Part shown: positions 37,006 through 52,230 of the stretch, one piece after another
How positions within the stretch are numbered: the first letter of the stretch is position 1
Layout: each line of letters opens with the position of its first letter
From: a virus
Virus record (IMG/VR): IMGVR_UViG_3300028008_001497
Span: 1-53,015 of that record
Length of the DNA: 53,015 nucleotides
Strand: one strand, 5' to 3'
Made by a program: the position numbers and the translations under genes
The notes under the pieces: generated by a model
Told to the model about the DNA's origin: nothing
What the model saw: only the letters and a program-made list of their open reading frames with translations
Database searches by the model: none

Positions 37006-38044
37006 ACAAATATTTTCTTATTCAAACCATAGTAGATTTACAAATCCAGAAGTTTTTGTTTCGGGAAAAAATGATACTGTAACAAACGCTGACGATAAGA
37101 CATATATCGATTGTAATAGTGGATTATGGAATGTAAACTTTGGATACAATAATCCAATGTATACTCCTACAACTGATCTGCATTATTACCCAACGCATTT
37201 TTGGAGTAGCACTGAATCAACAGAACTTGCTGCTGAACAAATATGTAAATGGTTTGGTTATGATAGAGTGTTTTTTGGACACAGCGGAAGTGATGCTATA
37301 GACACTTCTATATACATTGCAAAATATTATACAGGTAAAACAGACATTTTAGCATACAGTGTAGGCTATCATGGTACAAACACTCAAGCAAGTGTGTATG
37401 ACAGCTACACGGCGCTGTTAGACGCTGTAAACAGCAACACAGCAGCAGTTATTATAGAGCCTATAATGATTACTAATGGTGTTATAGAGTTTGATAAACA
37501 AACATTGCAGCAACTATTTGATTTAAAGCAGCAGTATGATTTTTGTATTATATTTGATGAAACTGTTACTGCATTAGGACGAGGCGATTATAGTTTTGAT
37601 TACAAGCCAGATATACTTATTGCTAGTAAAGGATTAACCAATGGAATATTTCCTCTAAGTGCTACAATGGTAAACGCTGATATTGGAAGTTATATTAAAA
37701 ATACAGATAGAGTATTTTCGCATGGATATACAATGAGTGGCCATCCACAAGGCAGTTATGCACTATTACAAACTATAAAACAAGTCGAAGACATGAAATA
37801 TCAATTGATAGATTTGCAAAATGCATTTTGCAAACAGTTAAATGAGCATAACTTAGATTATACAAACAAAGGATTAGTGTTTGGTATTCATGTTGAAAAC
37901 GGAATATACATACGTAGAGAACTACAAAAACAAGGATATCTTATACGTCAAGCAAATAACACACTATTATTTTTGCCTATGTTTATTGCTGATCATAATG
38001 ATTATACTAGATTTTTCGATCTTGTAGCCACTTTGTCAAAATAG
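36989..38044 (+). CDS. Class III PLP-dependent aminotransferase
   Basis: 351 residues, shorter than the usual 400-450. GHSGSDAIDTSI (97-108) is the phosphate-binding region, IIFDETVTALGR holds Asp190 that contacts the PLP ring nitrogen, and IASKGLTNG carries the Schiff-base Lys214. The small N-terminal domain is reduced. It probably transfers an amino group to an aldehyde or ketone of the pathway (an ALDH and a GNAT are nearby). It is the last gene of the plus-strand cassette; its 3' end overlaps the SET-domain gene on the other strand by 38 bases. The second in-frame ATG at 36998 is an alternative start. Confidence 0.88.
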   Translation: MSLMSRQIFSYSNHSRFTNPEVFVSGKNDTVTNADDKTYIDCNSGLWNVNFGYNNPMYTPTTDLHYYPTHFWSSTESTELAAEQICKWFGYDRVFFGHSGSDAIDTSIYIAKYYTGKTDILAYSVGYHGTNTQASVYDSYTALLDAVNSNTAAVIIEPIMITNGVIEFDKQTLQQLFDLKQQYDFCIIFDETVTALGRGDYSFDYKPDILIASKGLTNGIFPLSATMVNADIGSYIKNTDRVFSHGYTMSGHPQGSYALLQTIKQVEDMKYQLIDLQNAFCKQLNEHNLDYTNKGLVFGIHVENGIYIRRELQKQGYLIRQANNTLLFLPMFIADHNDYTRFFDLVATLSK

Positions 38045-38546
38045 TACCACTAACCCGATAGTTGTATACTTCGGGTAGGTTGTGTACTAACCAATCCTTG
38101 CCAGTTATATGTTTTCGACATTGTTCTGCACCACAGCAGCATTTATCAATGATAGTATAATCGTGATCAATAAACCCGGCATAATCTACAGTTATCTGTT
38201 CGTCTACATTAATGTCACGCAATGCAATGATTAAGTTTTCTTGAACGTATGCTGTAGGGTTGCAACTATGATTGTGGCAACCATTGAGCCAGTATTTCAA
38301 TCCACCTTGAAAGTGCCATGCACTGTTTACTAAATGAAAGTAATCTTGTTTGTATGCAGATCTTTCTTTTTCAGTTAACCACATACCACCTACACGATAA
38401 ATGATATCTCCTTCTTTGATATCTCGAGTAGCAAACTTACCATAACCAACTGTATCACTAATGAAGCGCAACTCATTAGTATCACTACTAAGTCCCAAAC
38501 TTATTTCGTGTGTATTTAAATATTCAATGAGATTGTGTTTATTCAT
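38007..38546 (-). CDS. SET-domain protein (lysine methyltransferase-like)
   Basis: 179 residues. GYGKFATRDIKEGDIIY (34-50) opens the SET fold, NHSCNP (92-97) and ITVDY (118-122) are the S-adenosylmethionine and catalytic core motifs, and CCCGAEQC (136-143) is a post-SET-like zinc cysteine cluster. Such proteins methylate protein lysines; they are unusual in phages. The target may be a host or virion protein, but nothing in the sequence says which. It overlaps the preceding PP-loop gene by 8 bases, and its 3' end runs into the convergent aminotransferase gene. Confidence 0.83.
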   Translation of the reverse strand: MNKHNLIEYLNTHEISLGLSSDTNELRFISDTVGYGKFATRDIKEGDIIYRVGGMWLTEKERSAYKQDYFHLVNSAWHFQGGLKYWLNGCHNHSCNPTAYVQENLIIALRDINVDEQITVDYAGFIDHDYTIIDKCCCGAEQCRKHITGKDWLVHNLPEVYNYRVSGTILTKWLQDRKI

Positions 38547-39432: not shown

Positions 39433-39461
39433 ATTATATTATTATATAGAAAAAATGTCAA
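39433..39461 (-). promoter_or_regulatory. Perfect-consensus sigma70 promoter, leaderless, -35 over a stop codon
   Basis: On the minus strand: TTGACA (39456-39461), exactly 17 bases, TATAAT (39433-39438), then 6 bases to the ATG at 39426. The TGA stop of the upstream protease gene (39458-39460) lies inside the -35 box (GGT-TGA-C). Confidence 0.85.
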
Positions 39462-41881
39462 CCTCTATCCCATTTTTGAATATAGTTTATTTGTACACCG
39501 CTAGTGCGCAAGCCTGACTTCATACTACTCTTACGCTTTGGAAACACTGTTTGTTTAAACTGTGTTGCATCTTGGTATATAACCTTTGGCGCTTCGCTAG
39601 TTTCTATACTAGTATAATCAGTCCAGTTAGCATCATTTAAACCTGTTGATTCGGTTCCGTAATAGAAGTTGGCAGTGGTTTGCCCTGGCATATTAGAAAG
39701 ATATGTCTTGATATCTGCATATGTCCAGTCTCTATTAAACTGCACCAATGTAGAAATAAATCCTGCTGCACACGGACATGCTGCACTAGTGCCACTAAAT
39801 CCTGTATCTTCAGGAACACCAGCACCACTTCCACTGTTGCCAGTAAACCCAGCATACGTAGCAGGATAATCACCTTCTGGAACATAACTACGGTTTGCTG
39901 CTAATATTCCATCTGCTGGTGCATACAAGTCTATTCCGTTGCCTCTGTCACTGTATCCAACTTTTCGTTCTTTAGCAGTTCCTGTGGAATGATCATCGTC
40001 TAGTGCACCGATGTTGATCGTTTTGTATGTGACCTCGCCAGTTACTCCGTCAACAGTTTTACCACCTTGTTGTGGAAATCCACGTCTATTGGTAGTACCT
40101 GTAACTTCAATACCAAACTCTTCAAAGCTACTTTGTTCTAAGGTATCGGTATTGTTTTGTGCGATATAGTTATCAAAGTCTGGATGCCCCCAGTTGGTTT
40201 GTTTTTGATTACTATTACCAGCAGCACATACAAATATAACGCCGCTGTCGATCAATTCGTCTAATGCTGTTGTCATAGAATTAGTTTTCATTTCGCCTTT
40301 CCAACGTCCACCATCGCCTTGTGTTCCCATGTGGCTTAGCCAACTTATACCAGTTTCTGTTGTGTATGCTGTTGCAGCACCACCTCTAAAATGATGATAA
40401 AGTGTAGAAGCTTCAGTGCCCCCTGGTGACTTAACAGCTCTGTATCCCCAACTATTTGAACTCACAGTTGGATCTTGTGTGCCATATGCAGGATTTATAG
40501 GTTTTACATTATGAAAGATTTTTTGCATGTCAAAACCAGGCTCGATGTCACTGCCATATGTGCCATACAAGTTTAAAACCCATTTGTTAGCGTTGTATGC
40601 CCAACCTTGTGTTCTACCGTATGTAAGCGCCATACAGGGTGTACAGTGCTCTCCTACACTGCTCTGTGTTGTGTTGGTACCGTTGCAGTATGCTCGTGTA
40701 TAGTTGCTTGTAATAAACGATACAACGCCAGCACTTGGAAACTTTGCTCTAAACACACTACTTCTATTATTTGAATTAGTCCACCATCCTCTTGCAAAAC
40801 TTTCGATAGGTACAGTAGTTCCGTCCCATCTTTGTTCAATTCTGTCGCCCATTTGGACATTAATAGTTCCACTCATATTTACATGAGTACTACATTGATA
40901 ATAATATGTTCCTGCTTCGGTTGGTGAAAAAGTAACAGTTCCGTTGTTTACTGCACCCTGTCCGGTAGTATTTGGCGCTTGATCTCCTGTACCAGAAGTT
41001 TGTGTAATTTTAATATATAACGGATGATTACCTTCTGGACTTGTGTTGGTTATTCTGAGAGTATCGCCTACGTAAATAGTTATAGGATAATCAGGACCGC
41101 CACCGCTTCCAGTACGATCTTGTCCAGTGTTTAATGTATAACTACCACCTTCAGAAGGACTAGCAAATACTGATCTACTGTAAGATGCAGGTAAAGGAAG
41201 AAAATAATCTGGATCTAAGTATAATGGTGCATCTAAACATAAATCTAATACATCACAGCTACCATTTCCAGGTAGTAGATTACCACCTGTGTATCCGTTT
41301 GGTTTCTCACCTTCGGTATCTCTATTAAACTCAGGGTGTCCAAGCCAACCAGCACCATCATCTGCTACAATAACATCAACATGCTTGCCATCACCCCACT
41401 GAGGTATTTTACTTGTTTTTACAACGCTATCTGCGTCACCGCCCTCGATCCATGGATCAACTAGTGTACTAGCTCTTAATGTCCCCCAGTTGGTTCTGTT
41501 GATATCTGCTGCACCGGGTGTACCAGGTAGTGTGTTAGAAGTTTCCATCTCTTTGTAAACTTTAACTGTATTTGTGTATCTATTAAAGTTTTTTGGACTA
41601 GCACTTGCATGAAGTTCGTCTGCAGGTGCTTTATATGTTTCAGGATACTTCGAGTAATCAATATTAATAAATTTTACACGAGGGTCGTCTTTTAGTGCAG
41701 TTGCTTCTGCATCAGTAAGTAGATAACTTCCTCTAGTAGCACTATGTTCTTTTTCGTCTTCTACAGTAACTTCTCTACTTGGAACACTAGCGTATGTGTT
41801 TCCGTCTGCAATAAGTTCTGCATGTAGTTCTTGCCATTGCTCTGCTGTATTTGTTCCTAGAGAATAATATTGTTCACTCAT
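39458..41881 (-). CDS. Subtilisin-like (S8) protease with inserted cupredoxin domain
   Basis: 807 residues from the ATG at 41881 (AAGGAC upstream). A propeptide-like N-terminus (about 1-110) precedes the catalytic parts: Asp174 in VIVADDGAGW, His412 in GEHCTPCMALTYG, Asn556 in VCAAGNSN and Ser699 in GFSGTSAACP. Between Asp and His, about residues 240-343, lies a cupredoxin-like domain (ITIYVGDTLRITNT ... GTYYYQCSTHVNMSGTINV) with candidate copper ligands His286, Cys330, His333 and Met336. It lies between a fibre-like gene and a promoter and is probably a virion protein. The HGTH motif of the family is altered to EHCT. Whether the protease is active is unknown. Confidence 0.83.
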   Translation of the reverse strand: MSEQYYSLGTNTAEQWQELHAELIADGNTYASVPSREVTVEDEKEHSATRGSYLLTDAEATALKDDPRVKFINIDYSKYPETYKAPADELHASASPKNFNRYTNTVKVYKEMETSNTLPGTPGAADINRTNWGTLRASTLVDPWIEGGDADSVVKTSKIPQWGDGKHVDVIVADDGAGWLGHPEFNRDTEGEKPNGYTGGNLLPGNGSCDVLDLCLDAPLYLDPDYFLPLPASYSRSVFASPSEGGSYTLNTGQDRTGSGGGPDYPITIYVGDTLRITNTSPEGNHPLYIKITQTSGTGDQAPNTTGQGAVNNGTVTFSPTEAGTYYYQCSTHVNMSGTINVQMGDRIEQRWDGTTVPIESFARGWWTNSNNRSSVFRAKFPSAGVVSFITSNYTRAYCNGTNTTQSSVGEHCTPCMALTYGRTQGWAYNANKWVLNLYGTYGSDIEPGFDMQKIFHNVKPINPAYGTQDPTVSSNSWGYRAVKSPGGTEASTLYHHFRGGAATAYTTETGISWLSHMGTQGDGGRWKGEMKTNSMTTALDELIDSGVIFVCAAGNSNQKQTNWGHPDFDNYIAQNNTDTLEQSSFEEFGIEVTGTTNRRGFPQQGGKTVDGVTGEVTYKTINIGALDDDHSTGTAKERKVGYSDRGNGIDLYAPADGILAANRSYVPEGDYPATYAGFTGNSGSGAGVPEDTGFSGTSAACPCAAGFISTLVQFNRDWTYADIKTYLSNMPGQTTANFYYGTESTGLNDANWTDYTSIETSEAPKVIYQDATQFKQTVFPKRKSSMKSGLRTSGVQINYIQKWDRG

Positions 41882-41892
41882 ATTTTTAGTCC

Positions 41893-43542
41893 TTAGATTA
41901 AGCTGGCCCAAGCACCGTTTTCATATCCCTGGAATTTGTTTAGTGTAGTATTGTAAATCATATCACCGTTTTCGGCACTCAAAGCATCACGTTCAGTGGT
42001 TGTAAAACTTGCTAGTTTAAACGGACTACTTGATACTTCTACCCTTGTACCGGCAGCAAGTATAATGTCAGTGTCACTTGATATTTCTGGTGTTCCACTA
42101 GCATTAGTAATGATGTTTTCAACTTCTATAGTATCGGCAATAATTTTGTTTGTAACAATTAAATCGTTTTCAACTGTAACATCACTGCTAAATGTAGCTG
42201 CTGGTGTTACTACAACTCCACTCGAATCACTTGAGTCTAATGTAGTACCAGTAAATGTAAAGCTACCTAATGTTGCTGGCTGTACAGCACTATCTGCTAA
42301 TGCACCTTGCGCACTAGTTGCAGCATCTGTTATTCCGTAACCTGCTAGTGTAGTTGGTGTTACACCTAAATCAGTAAAATCTTCTACTGTACCAGTAATA
42401 GTTATGTTGCCTTCTGCATCACTTGCTGTCGTAATACCGGTACCACCAAGTATACCAATAGTTTCTTGACCATTAACAACTCTTAATGTACTATCGTCTG
42501 CTGTGACATTCCAATGTGAATAGTTGTCAGTACTTCCGCCACCGCCACCACTAGATACTTCACGCATATTTAACCAGTTGCCAGCTTCATATATTTGGAA
42601 TCTACTATTTGTTGTATTGTAGATCATCATACCGTTTGCACCAGTTAGTGCGTCACGTTCTGCTGTTGTAAAAGATCCTGTTTGTATAAAGCCTGTTGCT
42701 TTTACATTACCTCTTACATCAAGTCTTAAACCTGCTGCTGGAGTATAATCACCAATAGCCATATTACCATCGGCAAATCCTACATAGTTAGTTGCCGCGT
42801 ACGATCCACTTGATGATGTACCAAGATACAATCCTGAATGCCATGCAGCAAATGATACATATGTTTTTGTACCAGTATCGTCTATTTGATCAAAACCTAT
42901 TAATCCAATATTTTGATCACTTGCCGTACCTGCATCAGTTCTTCTAATTTTTAAATACTGAGCTTCTTCGGTATTTGAAAAGTTTGTAGTGCCTATTGAT
43001 CCAGATGTTCCGTGACTTACATTTAACGAAGTATCATAAGTTATCTTATTAACATCTTGTAAGTTTCCGTGTAATGTACGAGTATTGCCGTCGACTATTA
43101 TAGTCGAATCGTCAGAAAACACACTACCAGTCATGTCTCCATCAAAAGTACCTGTGTGCGCACCTACTGCATTACCTGTAACATTACCTGTAACATTACC
43201 AACAAAACTATTAGCGGTTATTATGCCAGTACCTGCACCGCTTGCTGTAACATCTCCAGATATATTAATATCGCCATCGCCGACAATCTCTTGTCCGGTA
43301 ATACTTAAATCAACATCAATACTGATATTTGCATCACTAAGCGTTAAAACTGATGCTGTAGCATTATCAGTAATGCCTGTTAAGCTGCCGCCACCACCGC
43401 TGCCGCCCTGTAATACACCACCGGGTGTAGTTCCATCGCCAACGTATATTTTTTTAGTATCGGTGACATATATTATTTCGCCTTCAGCTGGCGTAATACT
43501 TGTCCTGTTTGCTTCTGTTCCGCGTCTTAGCTTTAAAGCCAT
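41893..43542 (-). CDS. Tail-fibre-like structural protein
   Basis: 549 residues. The N-terminus ALKLRRGTEANR, GEIIYVTDTKKIYVGDGTTPGG is the attachment-type domain common to many marine phage fibres. The middle has Gly-rich linkers and VTGNVTGNAVG-type repeats. Two copies of the module ERDAL..(E)NG.MIYNT...(K/R)FQ.YE are present, at about 308-345 and at the C-terminus, and a third lies in the protein at 2042-3457. A late-type GATAAATA (43573-43580) and AGGAGA precede the ATG. It ends 12 bases before the protease start, so the two are probably co-transcribed. Confidence 0.82.
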   Translation of the reverse strand: MALKLRRGTEANRTSITPAEGEIIYVTDTKKIYVGDGTTPGGVLQGGSGGGGSLTGITDNATASVLTLSDANISIDVDLSITGQEIVGDGDINISGDVTASGAGTGIITANSFVGNVTGNVTGNAVGAHTGTFDGDMTGSVFSDDSTIIVDGNTRTLHGNLQDVNKITYDTSLNVSHGTSGSIGTTNFSNTEEAQYLKIRRTDAGTASDQNIGLIGFDQIDDTGTKTYVSFAAWHSGLYLGTSSSGSYAATNYVGFADGNMAIGDYTPAAGLRLDVRGNVKATGFIQTGSFTTAERDALTGANGMMIYNTTNSRFQIYEAGNWLNMREVSSGGGGGSTDNYSHWNVTADDSTLRVVNGQETIGILGGTGITTASDAEGNITITGTVEDFTDLGVTPTTLAGYGITDAATSAQGALADSAVQPATLGSFTFTGTTLDSSDSSGVVVTPAATFSSDVTVENDLIVTNKIIADTIEVENIITNASGTPEISSDTDIILAAGTRVEVSSSPFKLASFTTTERDALSAENGDMIYNTTLNKFQGYENGAWASLI

Positions 43543-44854: not shown

Positions 44855-45133
44855 TTAGTTGTACTTCAAATGTGGACAAGCCAACATAAAGAAACTTAGT
44901 TCTTTTGAGCTTTCAAATCCAACATAATGTTGATGTACAAGATTCTTTTGTTCGTCTAACTGTACAGAGTTACCAAAAAAATATCTGCCAGTTAGATTGC
45001 TAATAATCCAATCGCATATTGCTTGATCTAAGTTATATCTACGTGGAATACTTATTGTAGCAAAATGAGGAGGGCAAAAATCTACCCTCCTTATATTTAA
45101 TACATCGAGTGGATTAGGGTCTTTTAGTTTCAT
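44855..45133 (-). CDS. Small conserved phage protein, unknown function
   Basis: 92 residues. No catalytic motif is evident. FCPPHFATISIPRRYNLDQAICDWIISNLTGRYF looks like a folded alpha/beta core, and it ends in FFMLACPHLKYN. Its ATG overlaps the stop of the metallopeptidase/VWA gene by 4 bases, so it belongs to that operon. I do not recognise a function. Confidence 0.7.
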   Translation of the reverse strand: MKLKDPNPLDVLNIRRVDFCPPHFATISIPRRYNLDQAICDWIISNLTGRYFFGNSVQLDEQKNLVHQHYVGFESSKELSFFMLACPHLKYN

Positions 45134-46425
45134 GCAGCCTCGTCATAATGTGCTGTTACACCAAACGGCGCTTGCAAGTTTTTATCATGGTGCGAATGAA
45201 TAATAAACACTGTCTCGCAATAGTCTTCGTCGCCCCAGCTATCCCATGCATAACCGTCTGTGAACATTAAAAACTTCTTAGGCTGAATATCATTTTCTTT
45301 CATATATGTCCAGTTAACCATAAAATCAGTGCCACCGCCACCAAGTATTTCATAGTCACATAGATTTTCTCCATTATCTGCACTAAAGTCTTGTTCATTA
45401 TATACTTTAGTATCAAAGCACCATAGTTTGATCTTATAGTCTTTGAACTCTTCCATAATGCCTTGTATTTCACCTAAGAAATCTGCTGCCTGTGAGTTAC
45501 CAATACTACCAGACATATCAATACAAATGCATAGATCGATTGTATCTTGAAAGTCCATACCGGGCAATATAGCACCCGTATGCCAACCTTTGCGTGATGG
45601 ACGGCTAAATGTAAAATCACTTTTAATAGTACTTTGGATTTGCTGACGAATAAGTTCACGCCAGTTCATCTTAGGCTCAGTAAGTTCTTTGATCATACGT
45701 GCAACACCTGCAGGTGTATTTCCTGCACCAGCAGTTTGTGCCGCATTAATCATAGCTTCTTTTACTTCGTCTCGAATCTGATCCATTTCTGCTTTGCTGT
45801 ACTTAGGACGACCTTTACCGCCTTTTCCATCTTTACCAGCTTCACCTTCCTCACCATCTTCGCCTTCTAAGTCTAAATGTTCATCTAACATTTCGCCTAG
45901 TTGTTTAAGATAATCTTCACCATTCTTTTTGGCTTCTTCAAATAGATCGTCATATACTTCTTCACTAATCCAACCTTCGTATTTGAAGTCTTGATAACAA
46001 CTTACAATACTTGGAATAGTACCAATACGATCACGTACTAGAAGATTATTAACAATATAGTCGGCTGCAATATTATACAACATTGGATTACGATCATCAC
46101 GTCGACCCAAGTGATCAAACACACAGTGAAGTATTTCGTGTGCAATAACAAATTCAATTTCTTTGTTATTCATTGCATTAAAGAACTGTGTATTAAAGTA
46201 TAGGTTACGACCGTCTACTGCGGCAGTACCTAACCATTCGTCTGCTGCCTGAATACGTAAACGTGTTGCCATATTACCAAAAAATGGGTGACGCAATAAT
46301 AGTCCAACTCGAGCAATAATAATACGATCAAGAACTTCTACACGCATTTCCTCCAGTTCTTCTGGAGTAATATCTGGATTCGGCTCCCAGTTTTTAAGTT
46401 TAGTTTGTGTATCTTTAGTAGCCAT
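45130..46425 (-). CDS. Metallopeptidase-like/VWA domain protein (partner of MoxR ATPase)
   Basis: 431 residues. HEILHCVFDH (96-105) is an HExxHxxxxH zinc site. An acidic, Gly-rich linker at 187-205 separates it from a VWA-like domain with DMSGS (303-307) and later GGGGTD and FTDG, which form the metal-ion adhesion site. This layout matches the DUF2201-type proteins that work with MoxR AAA+ ATPases as chaperone-like pairs. The MoxR gene lies just upstream in transcription order, but a terminator and a separate promoter (46455-46482) intervene. Confidence 0.85.
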   Translation of the reverse strand: MATKDTQTKLKNWEPNPDITPEELEEMRVEVLDRIIIARVGLLLRHPFFGNMATRLRIQAADEWLGTAAVDGRNLYFNTQFFNAMNNKEIEFVIAHEILHCVFDHLGRRDDRNPMLYNIAADYIVNNLLVRDRIGTIPSIVSCYQDFKYEGWISEEVYDDLFEEAKKNGEDYLKQLGEMLDEHLDLEGEDGEEGEAGKDGKGGKGRPKYSKAEMDQIRDEVKEAMINAAQTAGAGNTPAGVARMIKELTEPKMNWRELIRQQIQSTIKSDFTFSRPSRKGWHTGAILPGMDFQDTIDLCICIDMSGSIGNSQAADFLGEIQGIMEEFKDYKIKLWCFDTKVYNEQDFSADNGENLCDYEILGGGGTDFMVNWTYMKENDIQPKKFLMFTDGYAWDSWGDEDYCETVFIIHSHHDKNLQAPFGVTAHYDEAA

Positions 46426-46454
46426 GTCTAACCTCTTATAAGTGTTATACAGTT

Positions 46455-46482
46455 AATATAACATATTTACTATTATTGTCAA
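46455..46482 (-). promoter_or_regulatory. Sigma70-type promoter for the VWA protein gene
   Basis: On the minus strand: TTGACA (46477-46482), 16-base spacer, TATATT (46455-46460); leader of about 20-25 bases containing GAGG before the ATG at 46425. It lies immediately after the UUCG hairpin terminator of the MoxR gene. Confidence 0.75.
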
Positions 46483-46494
46483 CCTTTAAATAGA

Positions 46495-46522
46495 ATAATG
46501 GACAGCCGAAGCTGTCCATTAT
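46495..46522 (-). terminator. UUCG-tetraloop hairpin terminator after the MoxR gene
   Basis: A perfect 12-bp stem closing a TTCG loop on the minus strand (GGACAGC-TTCG-GCTGTCC core), followed by TATTCTATTT. C(UUCG)G is an exceptionally stable tetraloop typical of T4 terminators. It lies 9 bases after the stop codon of the MoxR gene. Confidence 0.85.
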
Positions 46523-46530
46523 GTACCAAC

Positions 46531-47616
46531 TTAAACTTGTTGCGCTGCCTTAATATACTTACCAAAGCGATTGTGGAATTCATCAAAGCATTCTACTTCG
46601 TCTGGATCGATAGGAAGTGCATATTGCGTAAGAGCAAGTTTAATACCCATAACAACCAGTTCTGTGTCAAAGTTATCCATTGCAAAGCGTAGGAAGTTAT
46701 TGACTTTATCATCAAACTTTTTGTCATTTTTATCAGATGATTCTTTGAGTTCATAACAGAGCGAAACAGTCAAGGAATACATGGCACTGATTTCTTTAGT
46801 TTTTAACTCCTTTACTTTACCTGCAAGAATATCTGTTGGGTTTGGCATACTTGAGGCAACCTTACGGTGTGCCATAAACTTAACAGCAAGACCTTCGCCT
46901 ACTGTACCTGCAACCAAATCAGTAGTAGTACTTTCGTCAAGTTCGTCTTCGAGCAATTCGCTTACAAATGACCAACTACGTGGTGTTGCAAATGACCGGC
47001 TTGCTGACTTTGGATCAAAATCATACAAGTCTTTTTTTGCAAACGTCAAGTAACCTACAACATCTTTGTGTTGATTATTGTCTACTGACCAGTTGAACCA
47101 GTCATCAAAGTTAACAGCAAGTTCTAGGTGAATAAAGCGGTTAGCCAATGGTGCTGGCATACGATATGTAACACCCTTGTCGCTTTCACGGTTACCTGCC
47201 GCAACAATAATAACATTGTCTGGTAGTTTGTATGTACCTACACGACGATTCAAAATCAACTGATATGCAGCCGCTTGTACAGCAGGTGCCGCTGAGTTCA
47301 TTTCGTCTAAGAAAAGTACAATATTATCATATTGTGCTGCCATTTCTTCATCTGGCAGTTCACTTGGTGCACCCCATGCCATTTTAACATTGTTGCTGTC
47401 AAAATACGGAATGCCTTTAATATCGGTTGGATCCCAAAGACTCAATCGAATATCAATAAGATGAGAGTTAGAAAAAGTTTTAGTAACTTGTTCTACGATA
47501 TCGGATTTACCAATACCCGGAGGACCCCAAAGAAAAACAGGACGCTTTTTATGCATTGCATGACGAAGAGCGTTTTTTGCTTTACTTGGAGAAACTGTGC
47601 GAATTACGTCTGACAT
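46531..47616 (-). CDS. MoxR-family AAA+ ATPase
   Basis: 361 residues. GPPGIGKS (31-38) is the Walker A loop and IVLFLDEMNSA (99-109) the Walker B strand. AAGNRESD holds the sensor 1 Asn, and PAPLANRFIHLEL the arginine-finger region, as in MoxR proteins. It should form a hexameric chaperone-like ATPase working with the VWA/metallopeptidase protein encoded next. Its own promoter lies at 47657-47685 and a UUCG terminator follows. Confidence 0.87.
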   Translation of the reverse strand: MSDVIRTVSPSKAKNALRHAMHKKRPVFLWGPPGIGKSDIVEQVTKTFSNSHLIDIRLSLWDPTDIKGIPYFDSNNVKMAWGAPSELPDEEMAAQYDNIVLFLDEMNSAAPAVQAAAYQLILNRRVGTYKLPDNVIIVAAGNRESDKGVTYRMPAPLANRFIHLELAVNFDDWFNWSVDNNQHKDVVGYLTFAKKDLYDFDPKSASRSFATPRSWSFVSELLEDELDESTTTDLVAGTVGEGLAVKFMAHRKVASSMPNPTDILAGKVKELKTKEISAMYSLTVSLCYELKESSDKNDKKFDDKVNNFLRFAMDNFDTELVVMGIKLALTQYALPIDPDEVECFDEFHNRFGKYIKAAQQV

Positions 47617-51198: not shown

Positions 51199-51290
51199 AG
51201 TCCTGCCTTTCTAAGTGCGTCTTGATCGATAGGCGCCTTCATAGCCTTTTCGTGTTGTGCGTTTTTATATTGTCTAAGTTCCCCAGGCAT
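51195..51290 (-). CDS. 31-residue small protein between queE and the 50794 gene
   Basis: A 31-codon frame starting at an ATG inside the end of queE (17-base overlap) and ending in an ATGA overlap with the next gene. The product is polar and helical (GELRQYKNAQHEKAMK, DQDALRKAGL). It fills the only gap in an otherwise overlapping operon, which favours a real gene. The frame remains open further upstream within queE, so a longer form is formally possible but unlikely. Confidence 0.55.
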   Translation of the reverse strand: MPGELRQYKNAQHEKAMKAPIDQDALRKAGL

Positions 51291-52230
51291 TTCCGAATAG
51301 GCTAATGTGGAGTCTTGGAGTGAATCGCCATCCTTCTGCCATACACGCTTCAGCAACGTCTTTAACATTGAGGGTGTATTCTTCACTGCGTCCACCCATT
51401 GGCATAAGATATACTGGACATTGTACCCCGGCATCTTGGTAAGCACTAACAGCTCTTTTAACTTCGATAAAGTCGTCTTCAGTAGCCACAACAAACTTAA
51501 GATAAAGTTCGCTACCGTCAACAGTAGTATACTCACGAGCAACATCAGGCTTGATAGCAGTTTCCCAAGGTTCTCCTGAGACACTAAGTTTTGGGGAACA
51601 ACTCCAAGTGACTGTAAGTCTGTCGCTGTCGTTGAGATAGTTGTAGAGATCGTCGTGTAAATGTTGTGTAGTATTTGTTTCAAATGTGATGTTCCTTAAA
51701 TCCTGCATACGTGGATGTTCAAACAGCTCTACGTAAAGCCGTTGCCACGCTAACAACGGTTCACCGCCTGTCATGATCAAGTGTACATCTTGACCATTGT
51801 CTTGTACCCACTTACCGTTAGGAGTAAGTGAAAGTAAATGCTCAACTACTTCATCTACAGTTGCTTGTCGATTAAAGTGTTTAAACTCTGGATAGATACT
51901 TGCATATGTATCGCAACCTGTGTGGATAATAGGCAGGTCTGTAAACTCTTTAGTTGTTTCATGTACACCTGCGTCAAGTAATCCTTGTACTTCGGCATTG
52001 TGAATAATGCCTGCTTTTTGTTTTACATCACGCATTGGTTCGTTCTTTAAGCCAAAGTTCATACAACGAAAGTTACAACCGAAGGTGCGTAGGAATACAC
52101 TGGGTACTCCTACAAACTTGCCTTCGCCTTGTACGCTATAAAAAGCTTCTGAATATCTTAGTTTCATAGATGTCTTTCTATTAACTGCTTCATAGTCAGG
52201 ATAACCTTTTTCAAATACTGGTGCTATCAT
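51274..52230 (-). CDS. queE: 7-carboxy-7-deazaguanine synthase QueE, atypical cluster motif
   Basis: 318 residues. QueE converts 6-carboxytetrahydropterin to 7-carboxy-7-deazaguanine, a radical SAM step of preQ0 synthesis. SEAFYSVQGEGKFVG (27-41), FLRTFGCNFRC (46-56) and MTGGEPL are family marks. The third cysteine of CxxxCxxC is missing at its normal place (CNFRCMNF); the matching CDTYAS phrase comes 49 residues later, with Cys106. The start at 52230 overlaps folE as ATGA. With FolE just upstream it forms a preQ0-type pair; no QueD is in view. Confidence 0.88.
   Translation of the reverse strand: MIAPVFEKGYPDYEAVNRKTSMKLRYSEAFYSVQGEGKFVGVPSVFLRTFGCNFRCMNFGLKNEPMRDVKQKAGIIHNAEVQGLLDAGVHETTKEFTDLPIIHTGCDTYASIYPEFKHFNRQATVDEVVEHLLSLTPNGKWVQDNGQDVHLIMTGGEPLLAWQRLYVELFEHPRMQDLRNITFETNTTQHLHDDLYNYLNDSDRLTVTWSCSPKLSVSGEPWETAIKPDVAREYTTVDGSELYLKFVVATEDDFIEVKRAVSAYQDAGVQCPVYLMPMGGRSEEYTLNVKDVAEACMAEGWRFTPRLHISLFGNAWGT

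Follow-up and report, generated by a model that had tools for sequence, protein, structure and literature searches.

The window (the whole stretch of DNA analyzed here, 53,015 nucleotides of the IMG/VR virus record IMGVR_UViG_3300028008_001497) encodes a phage subtilase of 807 amino acids that is interrupted, between its catalytic Asp and His, by a cupredoxin domain with a complete set of predicted copper ligands. Our confidence in the fold and in the completeness of the ligand set, which draws on sequence profiles and on structure modeling, is high. As for what the protein does, the reading that we prefer, and to which we assign a probability of roughly 0.6, is that the subtilase is a tail- or baseplate-region protein of a marine tailed phage, carrying an exchangeable copper-site module, displayed for contact or stability.

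The subtilase and its gene neighborhood

The ORF matches Peptidase_S8 (PF00082) in Pfam with 48.4 bits (1e-12), which passes the curated cutoff of 21.8, and is assigned to phrog_9158 in PHROGs at 9e-90. Its cyanophage homologues carry the annotation T4-GC 292 together with PF00082. The features of the protein outside the inserted domain, and the adjoining tail gene, are as follows.

39458..41881, minus strand: S8 subtilase with inserted cupredoxin domain, 807 aa (ORF from ATG, Pfam, PHROGs)
41648..41881, minus strand: N-terminal region, predicted beta-alpha-beta-beta-alpha-beta order (low-confidence model)
41360..41362, minus strand: codon of catalytic Asp174 (invariant in alignment A3; matches the subtilisin Asp motif)
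40646..40648, minus strand: codon of catalytic His412, in GEHCTPCM (invariant in A3)
40214..40216, minus strand: codon of oxyanion-hole Asn556, in AAGNSN (near-invariant in A3; aligns with subtilisin AAGN)
39785..39787, minus strand: codon of catalytic Ser699, in GTSAACP (near-invariant in A3; aligns with subtilisin GTSMASP)
41893..43542, minus strand: Mtd_N-domain tail protein, 11 nt upstream of the protease start (Pfam Mtd_N, 6e-13)

Alignment A3 comprises the window subtilase and 16 relatives. The Asp/His/Ser triad and the oxyanion Asn are present and conserved in it (the alignment to subtilisin itself is partial), and the columns of Asn556 and Ser699 have gaps solely in truncated rows. Because these catalytic residues are conserved, the protease is probably active. 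An AlphaFold2 run on the full-length subtilase gave a pLDDT of 50.8, which is too poor to place the cupredoxin domain or to be used. In the N-terminal region the local pLDDT is mostly 65–77, falling to 44–49 near residues 31–50, and there is no Pfam match; judging from the predicted order of its elements, this region is possibly a propeptide-like domain.

The Mtd_N protein has a weak match to a tail-fiber PHROG, and no relatives of it were found among annotated phages. Just downstream of the protease is a SET-domain protein (38007–38546, minus strand; Pfam SET, 9.9e-12), with which a QueC-like ORF was also noted in Pfam searches. Elsewhere in the window, a VWA/metallopeptidase-like protein (DUF2201; 45130–47616, minus strand) adjoins an AAA ATPase of the MoxR type, and positions 51274–52230 encode a radical SAM protein similar to QueE. 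A radical-SAM array of ~30 kb (6413–36385, plus strand) contains no fewer than 15 ORFs that match Pfam Radical_SAM and one that matches SPASM only. ORFs for aldehyde dehydrogenases and nitroreductases accompany them, and the array is bordered by ORFs for AMP-binding and class-III aminotransferase proteins.

Fold and predicted copper ligands of the inserted domain

The inserted domain sits between Asp174 and His412, and its position and predicted ligands are given below. Here A2 is an alignment and profile of 68 related modules that are 29%–71% identical to that of the window; 31/31 and 12/12 refer to the two sets of copies described further on.

40844..41200, minus strand: cupredoxin cassette, residues 228 to ~346 (~119 aa), at insertion site 1 (DNA breakpoints, AlphaFold2, Foldseek, profile)
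41024..41026, minus strand: codon of His286, first predicted copper ligand (invariant in A2; outside the fetching pattern)
40892..40894, minus strand: codon of Cys330, predicted copper ligand (invariant in A2; 31/31 modules, 12/12 isolate copies)
40883..40885, minus strand: codon of His333, predicted copper ligand (invariant in A2; 31/31 modules, 12/12 isolate copies)
40874..40876, minus strand: codon of Met336, predicted axial copper ligand (invariant in A2; 31/31 modules, 12/12 isolate copies)

A preliminary description of this DNA had proposed a plastocyanin- or amicyanin-like cupredoxin domain at this place, and the structural evidence bears it out for residues 228–346. The AlphaFold2 model of the domain, built from the A2 alignment, has a pLDDT of 90.8 and a pTM of 0.85, and the top PDB folds for it in Foldseek (TM 0.4–0.6) are rusticyanin, amicyanin and plastocyanin, followed by CuA domains and multicopper oxidases. 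When the A2 profile was compared with PDB sequences, it matched plastocyanin (4e-7), pseudoazurin (4e-6), and amicyanin (5e-6), and all 60 of the PDB matches listed were copper proteins. The Pfam family Copper-bind (PF00127) is matched by 49 of the 68 modules at E ≤ 0.01. For the window copy taken singly, the score for this family is 14.3 bits when the whole protein is searched and 18.0 bits for the domain, both under the cutoff of 21.2, whereas the homologous module in the relative L022 exceeds it with 24.3 bits; against the NCBIfam amicyanin model TIGR02657, the window copy scores 14.2 bits, far under the equivalog cutoff of 110.2. A chance motif is ruled out by the profile and fold matches to blue copper proteins.

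The four ligands lie exactly at the residue numbers first given for them, with Cys330, His333, and Met336 in C-x2-H-x2-M spacing, and they account for four of the seven columns that are invariant among the 68 modules of A2. It should be noted that many of the A2 loci were fetched with a DNA pattern for the Cys-His-Met segment, which biases this count, and it was countered with loci and isolates that had been found otherwise. Homologues without the ligands, which the preliminary description took as the finding that would speak against it, are not what these sets contain: all four residues are kept in 31 of 31 non-redundant modules from loci that were not pattern-fetched, and in 12 of 12 copies from cultured isolates found by tblastn (11 Kyanoviridae and one T7-like podovirus). 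More broadly, the ligands are intact in 127 of 130 near-full modules, and each of the three exceptions has lost three or four of them together. Partial modules that miss just some ligands were also seen (e.g., L185 and L210), so ligand loss is not strictly all-or-none, and because some copies have lost their ligands, the fold can apparently persist without the copper site. The spacing to the Met is Cys-x2-His-x2-Met in the window and its relatives; plastocyanins, with Cys-x2-His-x4-Met, have two extra residues. The fold matches and the sequence alignment place the four residues in a single putative site. As far as sequence comparison can tell, the module has a strongly conserved type-1 copper ligand set, and we have moderate confidence that the predicted site would bind copper.

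Insertion sites and probable exchange of the module

Comparison with related loci indicates that the module is a clean cassette. The window region is also present in three IMG/VR contigs at 99.98%–100% identity; DNA alignments to all other relatives without a cupredoxin at site 1 end at 41201 and mostly restart at ~40844. L014 and L017 share 86% identity with the window in the protease core but have a different, unrelated domain of ~300 aa at site 1, and the DNA of L019 follows the window at 89% identity until the module edge and then runs into that same domain. Site 1 is empty in L018, L020, L022, L024, and L028. Two further internal sites, both empty in the window, were located from the alignments of relatives.

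40041..40057, minus strand: insertion site 2, after NRRGFPQQGGK, empty in the window (relatives' alignments)
40337..40387, minus strand: insertion site 3, approximate position, empty in the window (relatives' alignments)

Site 2 is occupied by a cupredoxin in L022, L024, and L179 and by the unrelated ~300-aa domain in L015, L020, and L028, and site 3 by a cupredoxin in AG-345-F15 (L006) and L193. The S8 proteins of S-H9-1, S-CAM4, and others carry the cupredoxin at their C-terminus. Thus, by these alignments, there are at least three internal sites, each either empty or filled with a cupredoxin, and sites 1 and 2 also accept the unrelated domain; that is, a phage protease has internal sites that take up domains of unrelated kinds. 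The position within the protease fold had been called unusual at the outset. The insertion itself is borne out, but it is not unique; among relatives, the module is found at different internal sites, C-terminally, or in the baseplate protein gp9. Because relatives have site 1 empty or otherwise filled, and the cupredoxin elsewhere, the position between Asp and His is not special to the protease mechanism.

The S8 core and the module also group differently in our trees. In the tree of S8 cores, the window belongs with L014, L020, and L028 (100/99), and all three lack a cupredoxin at site 1. In the module tree, by contrast, the window cupredoxin and that of L015 are sisters (100/99), although L015 falls outside the window's S8 clade. 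This conflict supports exchange or repeated loss of the module, as far as the trees can show.

The unrelated ~300-aa domain (L014:4718–5620 and L038–L117) has the motif EHVFHTxHMHG and matched no family in Pfam or NCBIfam. It is embedded, at about 76%–100% identity, in many unrelated tail-type ORFs of marine phages (178 stretches), occurs also in 85 cyanophage records, and looks highly mobile. Judged by eye, it is unlikely to be an intein.

Occurrence, possible role, and known systems

The module is not a rarity among phages: it occurs in 184 annotated phage records, all from marine cyanophages or marine single-cell viruses, and many IMG/VR contigs encode it as well. The majority of the isolate matches listed are to gp9, the baseplate wedge-tail fiber connector; other carriers are S8 proteases, the proximal tail fiber of P-SSM2, and other large phage proteins. 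In S-SSM7, P-SSM2, and S-CREM1, S8 genes have gp9, tail-fiber, or baseplate genes as neighbors. In S-SSM7, Sf-FS3, and S-SCSM2R the protease is free of inserts, and the product of the adjacent gene has a cupredoxin with the full ligand set at its C-terminus. In the open-licence literature (preprints on bioRxiv excluded), we came across no account of cupredoxin domains in the tail or protease proteins of phages.

Among bacterial genomes, the closest matches to the module are in marine Flavobacteriia (E down to 1e-42), where it forms either a small stand-alone protein whose N-terminus resembles a signal peptide or one domain of a large protein that looks like a lipoprotein; these signal-peptide and lipobox-like features were recognized by eye. 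Large exported-looking proteins that end in the module are encoded at the Flavobacteriia loci L240, L275, L281, L296, and L321, among others.

The preferred reading is that the module would be a portable extracellular domain displayed on the phage tail or baseplate. It would take up a single copper ion, probably once the phage is free in seawater or in the lysate of the infected cell, and the bound copper may rigidify it. Its job would then be to contact the host surface or to stabilize an exposed protein, and would be neither protease catalysis nor electron transfer. We propose adhesion or stability as the most likely role because of the kinds of proteins that carry the module, that is, from where it occurs. 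The sequence does not separate the two, and our confidence in any specific function is low. If copper is bound, a sizeable fraction of the marine cyanophages in culture would have a copper protein in the tail or baseplate, and phage infectivity would be tied to a trace metal that is scarce and toxic in the ocean. Metal centers occur in phage tail tips and fibers, for example in T4 and P2. We consider it distinctly unlikely that the full claim holds, namely that marine phage tails carry a functional, exchangeable type-1 copper site, loaded after release, which either locks the protein in a stable state or switches binding or protease activity, with environmental copper affecting infectivity.

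Several other readings share part of this evidence. The cupredoxin fold could be a structural relic, an Ig-like beta-sandwich spacer whose ligands aid folding or are inherited, in a virion that is copper-free; we regard this as unlikely. Such a spacer would be consistent with the ligand-less copies, which are found in multi-module proteins, with the unrelated domains held by the same protease sites, and with the scarcity of free copper in the cytoplasm, the compartment of phage assembly. However, the four ligands are among the most conserved columns even though the modules have diverged as widely as described above, which is unexpected for a spacer, and all 12 isolate copies have kept them. 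The inserts might alternatively regulate or target the protease in a copper-dependent manner, presenting substrate or gating activity near the substrate cleft, with copper acquired after release as the switch. The motif order suggests that all three internal sites lie between catalytic-core motifs which, in subtilisin, border the cleft, and the conserved catalytic residues point to a protease that is probably active; but other S8 proteins lack the module or carry it at the C-terminus, and the gp9 and tail-fiber carriers have no protease at all. Because the module occurs in non-protease proteins, we disfavor gating as its general role and find it quite improbable overall.

A plastocyanin-like auxiliary metabolic function, in which the viral protein would transfer electrons or deliver copper, might be suggested by the blue-copper ligand set, by the plastocyanin that some cyanophages encode (PMC3037559), and by the annotation of the neighboring protein in S-SCSM2R as PetE. 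That gene (L003:5173–5679), however, encodes a fiber-like N-terminus followed by a C-terminal cupredoxin, and its product resembles gp9 of S-SSM7 and Sf-FS3. In the phages examined, the module forms part of tail, baseplate, or protease proteins, and its Met spacing is unlike that of plastocyanin. We therefore rejected a viral plastocyanin gene on the grounds of fusion to tail-type proteins and Met spacing; electron transfer is an unlikely role for the module, and we give the metabolic reading as a whole very little credence. Because the S-SCSM2R “PetE” is fiber-like, phage genes annotated as plastocyanin can encode tail-type proteins, and plastocyanin-like matches in viral data more generally can represent such proteins rather than photosynthesis genes.

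Compared with the known cupredoxins (PF00127; amicyanin, plastocyanin, rusticyanin), the phage module shares the beta-sandwich and, with amicyanin, the His...Cys-x2-His-x2-Met ligand order. It differs in being inserted in a protease or appended to tail or baseplate proteins, with no redox partner known. The exported proteins of marine Flavobacteriia contain the same module family, frequently at the C-terminus of a protein that resembles a lipoprotein, but they are cellular and, unlike the phage subtilase, have no protease that could be recognized by eye. Cyanophage T4-GC 292 (phrog_9158) is the same protease family in the same tail-region neighborhood as the window subtilase, although its members in S-SSM7, Sf-FS3, S-SCSM2R, and P-SSM2 are proteases without the cupredoxin. 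Conversely, cyanophage gp9 (phrog_677) has the same module with all ligands but is not a protease, and carries it at the C-terminus whereas that of the window is internal. Subtilases with inserted domains are known, among them tripeptidyl peptidase II, in which the insert lies between Asp and His, and the PA-domain subtilases. The window subtilase resembles these in having an extra domain between catalytic residues; however, they have domains other than cupredoxins as inserts, and within a family the insert is constant, whereas the content of the phage site varies among close relatives.
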